The notes under the pieces are model-generated. The model was not told where the DNA came from. It saw only the letters and a list, made by a program, of their open reading frames with translations, and ran no database searches. Shown one piece after another: positions 5,372 to 7,553 of a DNA stretch of 64,000 bases. Numbering within the stretch: position 1 is the first letter of the stretch; every line of letters starts with the position of its first letter. The translations under genes were made by a program, and so were the position numbers. The stretch is from Mycobacterium sp. (GTDB lineage: Bacteria; Actinomycetota; Actinomycetes; Mycobacteriales; Mycobacteriaceae), in NCBI RefSeq assembly GCF_019247615.1, contig NZ_JAFBAT010000192.1:1-64000 (forward strand), written 5' to 3'.

Positions 5372-5835
5372 ACACGACGGTGACCGCCCGGCTGCTCGGC
5401 CTCGCCGAGCTCGGCTATGCGCACTGGTTGTTCGGCAACATCTACGAGGCCGCCGTCAGGATGCCGGAACGGCTCGCCGGCGAGCCGCATACCGGCTCAG
5501 TTCTCGGCCCGGGGAGCCCGCTGCGCTATTACGCCCCCCTCGCACCGGTCACGCTGGCGACCACCGCCGCGGCCGTTCGCACCGGCTGGGACATCGGCGG
5601 CGCGAGGCGCTGGCTGGCCCTGATGGCCGCCGGCTCGACCGTCGGCGTGGCGCTCAGCGGCTACCTGATCCGCACGGTGAATCTCCCGGTGATGTTCGCG
5701 GCCGACCCGCCCCCGCCCGCCCAGCGGGACGCCCTCATTCGCACCTGGTACGTGCTCAATGGGGTTCGCATCGTGGCCACGGGTGCCGCGTTGTTCGCCG
5801 CGCATCGCGCACGGTCCGGTAGTTTCGACCGGTGA
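5368..5835 (+). CDS. DUF1772/anthrone-oxygenase-like membrane protein
   Basis: A 155-aa protein from a GTG overlapping the previous stop. It has about four membrane helices and a loop with LRYYAPLAPVTL and a C-terminal WYVLNGVRIVATGAALFAAHRAR segment. The pattern (N-terminal helix, YE...P.L loop, three more helices, W-x-x-x-N-x-x-R) fits the DUF1772 group. Some relatives are called anthrone oxygenases, but no activity follows from this. Its TGA overlaps the start of the M50 gene, making a tight three-gene membrane operon. Confidence 0.6.
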   Translation: MNTTVTARLLGLAELGYAHWLFGNIYEAAVRMPERLAGEPHTGSVLGPGSPLRYYAPLAPVTLATTAAAVRTGWDIGGARRWLALMAAGSTVGVALSGYLIRTVNLPVMFAADPPPPAQRDALIRTWYVLNGVRIVATGAALFAAHRARSGSFDR

Positions 5836-6608
5836 GCTTCCCCGCCCGGCAACACGAATCGGTGCGGCCCAGCCCGGTCTTTTTGGCGCTGGTGGGATTG
5901 ACGGCTCTCGGCGGCGCGCTGGCGTGGCTGGCCGGATCCAGCGTGCGCCCGCTGTCGTATGCCGGGGTGTTCATCTTCGTGATCGCCGGCTGGCTGGTTT
6001 CGCTGTGCCTGCACGAGTTCGGCCATGCGTTCACCGCCTGGCGGTTCGGCGATCACGACGTCGCGGTGCGCGGCTATCTGACGCTGGATCCGCGGCGCTA
6101 CAGCCACCCCGGGCTTTCGCTCGTCCTGCCGATGGTGGCCATCCTGCTGGGCGGCATCGGGCTGCCCGGTGCGGCGGTCTACGTGCGGACCTGGTTCATG
6201 ACGCCGATGCGCCGCAGCCTGGTCAGCCTGGCGGGCCCGGCGGCCAACCTCGTGCTGGCGGTGCTGCTGCTGACGCTCACCCGGCTGCTCTACGATCCCA
6301 CCCACGCCGTGCTGTGGGCGGGGGTGGCGTTTCTCGGATTCCTGGAGCTCACGGCGGTACTGCTGAACCTGCTGCCAATCCCGGGCCTGGACGGATACGA
6401 CGCGCTGGAGCCGCATCTGAGTCCCCAGACGCAGCGCGCGTTGGCGCCGGCCAAGCAGTGGGGCTTTTTCGTCGTGCTGTTCCTGCTGGTCGCCGCAAAC
6501 CGGCAGTTCTTCGGGGTCGTGCTGTGGTTGTTCGACATTTCGGGCGTGCCGCGCGGGCTGATGGCCGCGGGCTATTCGCTGACCCTGTTCTGGAACCGCT
6601 GGCTCTGA
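5832..6608 (+). CDS. Site-2-protease-like M50 zinc metallopeptidase (Rv0359-like)
   Basis: A 258-aa polytopic membrane protein. HEFGH at about residues 61-65 is the HExxH zinc site, and NLLPIPGLDGYDALE near residue 178 supplies the third ligand (the NPxPxLDG-type motif), so both halves of the intramembrane active site are present. These enzymes cleave membrane-embedded helices, often anti-sigma factors or signal-peptide remnants. The substrate here is unknown. The GTG start overlaps the upstream stop. In M. tuberculosis the ortholog directly follows Rv0358. Here a divergently transcribed small gene and two co-directional membrane genes lie between. Confidence 0.88.
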   Translation: MSFPARQHESVRPSPVFLALVGLTALGGALAWLAGSSVRPLSYAGVFIFVIAGWLVSLCLHEFGHAFTAWRFGDHDVAVRGYLTLDPRRYSHPGLSLVLPMVAILLGGIGLPGAAVYVRTWFMTPMRRSLVSLAGPAANLVLAVLLLTLTRLLYDPTHAVLWAGVAFLGFLELTAVLLNLLPIPGLDGYDALEPHLSPQTQRALAPAKQWGFFVVLFLLVAANRQFFGVVLWLFDISGVPRGLMAAGYSLTLFWNRWL

Positions 6609-6612
6609 GCGC

Positions 6613-6646
6613 TTGCAATATATGCGTAGTGACGCATATATTGCAA
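6613..6646. promoter_or_regulatory. Perfect 15-bp inverted repeat operator before the CDF gene
   Basis: Arms TTGCAATATATGCGT and ACGCATATATTGCAA are exact reverse complements around the spacer AGTG. The right arm holds a -10-like CATATAT and ends 4 nt before the ATG, so the transcript would be nearly leaderless and a bound repressor would block it. AT-rich imperfect palindromes centred like this are typical of ArsR/SmtB metal sensors. No such regulator is in the window. Confidence 0.85.
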
Positions 6647-6650
6647 AGCT

Positions 6651-7553
6651 ATGGGCGCCGGTCATAGCCACACCCCCGCAGAGGTGGACGGGTCAGGGAT
6701 GATCCCCCGCATGGTCGCCGCCGCGGCGATTCTGGTGGCGTTCTTCGTGGTCGAATTGACCACATCGCTGCTGATCAACTCGATGGCCCTGCTGGCCGAT
6801 GCCGGGCACATGCTGACCGACGTCGTTGCCGTGTTCATGGGGCTGATCGCCGTCATCCTGGCCCGGCGCGGCAGCTCGTCACCGGCGCGCACCTACGGCT
6901 GGCATCGCGCGGAGGTGTTCACCGCGGTAGCCAACGCGGCGCTGCTGATCGGCGTCGCGGTGTTCATCGTCTACGAGGCCATCCAACGTCTGAAGGAGCC
7001 CCTGTCGGTCCCGGGCGTGCCGATGATCGTGGTCGCGCTGGCGGGGCTGGCGGCCAACCTCGTGGTGGCATTGCTGCTGCGTTCGCATTCGGAGGGCAGC
7101 CTGGCGGTCAAGGGCGCCTACATGGAGGTGATCGCCGACACGGTCGGAAGCCTGGGCGTGCTGATCGCCGGCGTGGTCACCGTCACGACCCGTTGGCCCT
7201 ATGCCGACGTGGCAGTGGCCGTCCTGGTCGCGATCTGGGTGCTGCCGCGCGCCATCTCCCTCGCCCGCGCGGCCCTGCGGATTCTCTCCGAGTCCTCGCC
7301 CGCGCACATCGACGTGGAGGAGTTGCGCTCGGCGCTGGGTGCCGTCGACGGCGTCACCGAAGTGCACGACCTGCACGTGTGGACGCTTTCCCCCGGCAAA
7401 GACATGTGCACCGCGCACTTGACGAGCGATGACGGCGACTCGGCCCGGGTGCTGCAAGATGCCCGCACGGTGCTGTCGGCCCGTGGGCTGGACCATGCCA
7501 CCGTGCAGATCGAGTGCCCCGGGGCCGGTGGCGGCTGCCAGGAGAGCTACTGA
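6651..7553 (+). CDS. Cation diffusion facilitator metal exporter (ZitB/CzcD-like)
   Basis: A 300-aa CDF antiporter with about six membrane helices. Helix 2 carries the metal site LLADAGHMLTDVVA (HxxxD). Helix 5 reads MEVIADTVGSLG, giving ExxxD where zinc exporters usually have HxxxD. The cytoplasmic domain has the family motif VHDLHVWTLSPG near residue 243 and ends in Cys-containing ECPGAGGGCQESY. It would pump Zn2+ or a related divalent ion out of the cytoplasm in exchange for protons. The operator-like palindrome directly upstream argues for metal induction. It overlaps the convergent DUF3151 gene by 7 nt. Confidence 0.9.
   Translation: MGAGHSHTPAEVDGSGMIPRMVAAAAILVAFFVVELTTSLLINSMALLADAGHMLTDVVAVFMGLIAVILARRGSSSPARTYGWHRAEVFTAVANAALLIGVAVFIVYEAIQRLKEPLSVPGVPMIVVALAGLAANLVVALLLRSHSEGSLAVKGAYMEVIADTVGSLGVLIAGVVTVTTRWPYADVAVAVLVAIWVLPRAISLARAALRILSESSPAHIDVEELRSALGAVDGVTEVHDLHVWTLSPGKDMCTAHLTSDDGDSARVLQDARTVLSARGLDHATVQIECPGAGGGCQESY

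Follow-up and report, generated by a model that had tools for sequence, protein, structure and literature searches.

What is a flawless palindrome doing across the promoter of a metal exporter gene? The question arises in a 64,000-nt stretch of Mycobacterium sp. DNA (GCF_019247615.1, contig NZ_JAFBAT010000192.1, positions 1-64,000, forward strand; hereafter the window), in which the letters at 6613-6646 are TTGCAATATATGCGT-AGTG-ACGCATATATTGCAA: two fully (100%) complementary 15-nt arms about a 4-nt centre, with 4 bp between the end of the palindrome at 6646 and an ATG at 6651. The answer proposed here, and held with high confidence, is that the zinc sensor SmtB, encoded in smtB-zur on another contig, uses the palindrome as its operator and represses the exporter gene, zitA, until zinc is in excess.

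The palindrome and the zitA promoter

A preceding sequence-only reading of this DNA had seen a 34-bp, 15+15 inverted repeat 4 bp 5' of the ATG and had judged it too good for chance. The description is exact, and the judgement agrees with 300 dinucleotide-preserving shuffles, which yield an expectation of 0.0033 perfect repeats per window (arms of at least 15 nt, loop of 0-8 nt); by the same definition the palindrome is the sole perfect inverted repeat in the window.

The two flanking genes are both read from the plus strand. On the upstream side, the gene of an M50 metalloprotease (5832-6608) has its stop codon 4 bp before the palindrome, and an M50 gene also adjoins zitA in the fetched loci of the genus that hold the zitA site. 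On the downstream side, the 300-aa product of 6651-7553 matches PF01545 (3e-36), ZT_dimer (1e-9) and TIGR01297 (3e-68), and combines the Cation_efflux and ZT_dimer domains with HxxxD in TM2: it belongs, as the earlier reading had it, to the CDF exporters, and among these to the ZitA kind; its ortholog in M. smegmatis is the zinc exporter MSMEG_0755 (PMC7174638, PMC9374683). In this protein and its relatives (L011-L090) the TM5 metal site is ExxxD (EVIAD, EVVAD or EVLAD), in contrast to the HxxxD of the aligned human zinc transporter 8; the motif could be located in 72 relatives, all of which have the glutamate. Their TM2 keeps HxxxD.

A promoter-pair scan finds a -35-like TTGCAA at 6613-6618 and a -10-like TATATT at 6637-6642, both on the plus strand and separated by 18 nt. 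Since this promoter-like pair falls inside the palindrome, the palindrome holds not only the -10 box that had been claimed for it but a -35-like element as well. ArsR/SmtB operator-promoters have an inverted repeat placed at the regulated gene's promoter or overlapping it, and 6613-6646 has this arrangement. The -10-like element ends 8 nt 5' of the ATG here and 6 or 7 nt from it in most relatives, and this short spacing suggests that the zitA message is probably leaderless. In several other genera, as in an M. abscessus-like group, the zitA site is exact or near-exact, the start codon lies farther downstream, and a ribosome-binding-site-like stretch precedes it. The sequence being palindromic and including both hexamers, TTGCAA-18-TATATT is also found on the minus strand (6617-6646), where it might give rise to transcription antisense to the M50 gene.

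Conservation among relatives

Eighty relatives of the exporter, nearly all of them mycobacterial, were compared together with the DNA upstream of their genes. ATGC-N8-GCAT lies at most 130 bp upstream in 73 of the 80, as against 2 occurrences in the remaining 680 kb of the same loci; for the stricter AYATGC-N8-GCATRT the corresponding figures are 55 of 80 and 0. Column by column, the relatives keep the half-sites (whose conservation is set by the search itself), the adjoining A/T, and the promoter hexamers as TTGC.A (TTGCNA) and TATATT, while the centre of the palindrome and its outer arms vary. Because half-sites and hexamers are conserved while centre and outer arms drift, the alignment speaks for a protein-binding site over a promoter and not for an RNA stem.

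Two of the fetched loci call for separate mention. In L082 another long palindrome, nearly perfect and distinct from the zitA site, stands upstream of that site at ~45-97 bp from zitA (GGGATTTGTGCACGAT...ATCGTGCACAAATCCC); it was seen in this one strain only. The zitA upstream sequence of L089, whose contig bears the label Kitasatospora arboriphila NRRL B-24581, is identical to that of Williamsia muralis (L088), so that the record looks mislabelled or contaminated.

A second copy of the core at smtB-zur

Taken whole, the 34-mer is found nowhere else in the genome, even with 3 mismatches allowed. Its core, ATGCGT-AGTG-ACGCAT (6622-6637, without strand), is conserved in relatives, and in the form ATGCGT-N4-ACGCAT it occurs in exactly two exact copies in the whole genome, one upstream of zitA and the other at 7600-7615 of contig C7, in the smtB-zur promoter. 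Four other places that match the core with one mismatch lie within reading frames or at unrelated genes, and their number is what chance would give. The sequence-only reading had placed the regulator elsewhere in the genome and had proposed scanning for the 15-mer next to an arsR-family gene. The proposed regulator is indeed encoded elsewhere, and the scan finds a core copy before smtB, but what the two sites share is a core of 16-20 bp and not the 15-mer.

HTH_5 has eight matches in this genome. One of these, L003 on contig C7, has a Fur-family gene directly downstream, which makes the pair smtB-zur; the DNA upstream of this smtB holds ACATGCGTCATCACGCATGT. In addition to its HTH_5 domain the L003 protein has the D-x-H...H-x-x-E ligands of an SmtB at SmtB spacing: D120, H122, H133 and E136 align with the alpha5 ligands of 1r1t. 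The closest solved structure is 8qkf. The promoter of an ArsR/SmtB repressor's own gene thus shares a site with that of zitA. That exact copies of the core are confined in this genome to zitA and smtB-zur points to SmtB as the owner of the palindrome.

Relation to published systems

In M. smegmatis, loss of smtB raises MSMEG_0755 expression about 80-fold; zinc excess raises it about 14-fold, and zinc starvation lowers it about 34-fold. SmtB ChIP enriches for the promoter of the gene in vivo (PMC7174638), and zinc resistance of M. smegmatis depends on the gene (PMC9374683). The authors of the 2020 work could not find a site for SmtB in the zitA promoter and deferred its identification to future experiments (PMC7174638). 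The two systems are alike in having a CDF zinc exporter under SmtB repression, with smtB beside zur elsewhere in the genome, and in that smtB-zur is itself under SmtB control; they differ in that a conserved palindrome is proposed here where no site was found there. By orthology, the site in the present genome would correspond to one in the ChIP-positive M. smegmatis zitA fragment, and the palindrome is the best candidate for the SmtB contact site that the M. smegmatis work lacked. Together with the alpha5 ligand spacing and the core before smtB-zur, the MSMEG_0755 data support the ArsR/SmtB-type control that had been suspected at this locus, and the metal sensed at the zitA operator is most likely zinc.

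In M. tuberculosis the promoter of smtB-zur is overlapped by a 26-bp SmtB site (cited in PMC13284343); the present genome is alike in having a candidate SmtB site over the promoter of the same operon. The form of the smtB-promoter core to be compared with this 26-bp site is TTGACATGC-N8-GCATGT. The cyanobacterial 12-2-12 operators (smt, zia, nmtA; PMC8790569) resemble the present case in that the promoter of a metal-handling gene carries an inverted repeat and the sensor has an alpha5 zinc site. Their listed half-sites are of the TGA..TCA type, whereas those found here are ATGC..GCAT within a perfect 15-4-15 symmetry, and the candidate regulator of zitA is not encoded next to the exporter. The 26 bp of an imperfect 12-2-12 repeat are covered by the palindrome, with the innermost pair on each side non-complementary (geometry as in PMC8790569).

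Proposed mechanism and alternatives

The zitA switch is a system of a known kind with an unusually clean sequence. Metal-free SmtB would bind ATGC-N8-GCAT over and between the -35 and -10 elements of zitA and, presumably by steric exclusion, keep RNA polymerase off the promoter. In zinc excess SmtB would take up zinc at its alpha5 site and leave the DNA; the released promoter would then give rise to a probably leaderless zitA message, whose product, the CDF exporter, would remove zinc. The same operator, fused to TTGACA at the smtB-zur promoter, would make for autoregulation. The palindrome and its smtB-zur partner offer a concrete site for the point left open by the 2020 M. smegmatis study (PMC7174638), and the consensus can be used to find SmtB targets in mycobacteria, for whose survival of zinc poisoning zinc export matters.

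Could the palindrome belong to another sensor of the ArsR family, responding to nickel and cobalt or to cadmium? The eight HTH_5 matches leave room for this, and one of them (L006) adjoins a second CDF gene. However, only the smtB promoter has the core in common with the palindrome, and the orthologous exporter answers to SmtB and to zinc (PMC7174638), so that a different ArsR-family owner is very unlikely; L006 in particular was rejected because its own upstream DNA lacks such a palindrome. Zinc-loaded Zur might alternatively activate zitA through the palindrome, in the manner in which Zur induces the zinc exporter gene zitB in Streptomyces coelicolor (PMC5472717). Against this activation, which is the least probable of the alternatives considered, stand the overlap with the core promoter, which suits a repressor, and the roughly 80-fold rise of zitA on loss of smtB cited above (PMC7174638). 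Direct comparison with the consensus in PMC2823685 also shows 6613-6646 to be unlike a Zur box, which is a palindrome of the TGAAAATGATTTTCA type.

A palindrome that folds at -26 kcal/mol (z -4) and begins 4 bp beyond the M50 stop codon might also act as an RNA hairpin, either terminating M50 transcription or structuring the zitA leader. There is, however, no T-run and no terminator-like site at 6613-6646, and an intrinsic terminator, with its stem and T run, was rejected on that account. The palindrome lies upstream of the inferred start of the zitA message; the variation at its centre and in its outer arms breaks pairing, conservation being confined to half-sites and promoter hexamers; and smtB promoters carry the core too, with no M50 gene in their vicinity. 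An RNA role is accordingly even less probable than ownership by another ArsR-family sensor, though it ranks ahead of activation by Zur.

Site and sensor across the family

The SmtB operator reading can be followed through the Mycobacteriaceae, in which SmtB is present once per genome in 112 of 121 genomes. AYATGC-N8-GCATRT occurs in 261 of 298 Mycobacterium genomes, and the reversed pattern in about 25; in many genomes there are two copies of the motif, one reading ATATGC..GCATAT and the other ACATGC..GCATGT. Thirty sites with the pattern were fetched: 13 lie before zitA, 11 before smtB and 6 elsewhere, with no obvious zinc gene beside these 6. Among 28 genomes paired with the zitA set, 24 have the core at the smtB promoter; among 29 loci sampled from the family, 26 have it. 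The core is nearly always present there as TTGACATGC, that is, fused to the -35 element. Outside Mycobacterium, it precedes the zitA homolog in 16 of 17 genomes with SmtB versus 0 of 6 without (Fisher's exact test, about 7e-5, uncorrected for shared descent). Within Mycobacterium, a genome without smtB (G020/G241) likewise lacks the palindrome.

Three exceptions count against SmtB as the regulator. One genome (G007/G267) keeps the palindrome, and smtB was not found in its draft assembly; Mycolicibacter-like genomes keep smtB and its site and have lost the zitA site; and M. abscessus-like smtB promoters lack the core within 300 bp. The Mycolicibacter-like zitA promoters retain TATATT at the same place though the palindrome is gone. 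Several of these loci (among L072, L168, L169, L170, L171 and L176) have an inverted repeat of the CGTGAA-N6-TTCACG type upstream, L170 twice, which is possibly the operator of another regulator. A broader proposal, that ATGC-N8-GCAT is the family-wide SmtB operator of a minimal zinc regulon of sensor and exporter in the Mycobacteriaceae and that Mycolicibacter zitA has been rewired to another regulator, marked by the GTGAA-N6-TTCAC-type repeat upstream of the retained -10 element, is tentative, and taken as a whole we incline somewhat against it.

A further near-identical site, ACATGCGTAT(A/T)ATTGCATGT, occurs in two fast growers (L127, at G064:C1:703949, and G067:C7:23783); in L127 a 506-aa reading frame, which is neither zitA nor smtB, has this site at its start. 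The smtB promoters vary in another respect. A Zur-like box, TGAAAANNNTTTCCA, was not found in the scanned smtB promoter region of slow growers, the present genome included, in which respect the latter differs from M. smegmatis. In fast growers and Mycolicibacter-like genomes the box follows the SmtB core by ~14 nt (L104, L106, L108, L110-L116, L119-L121, L244, L245, L248, L249, L251-L255 and L257), in agreement with the dual control by SmtB and Zur reported for M. smegmatis.
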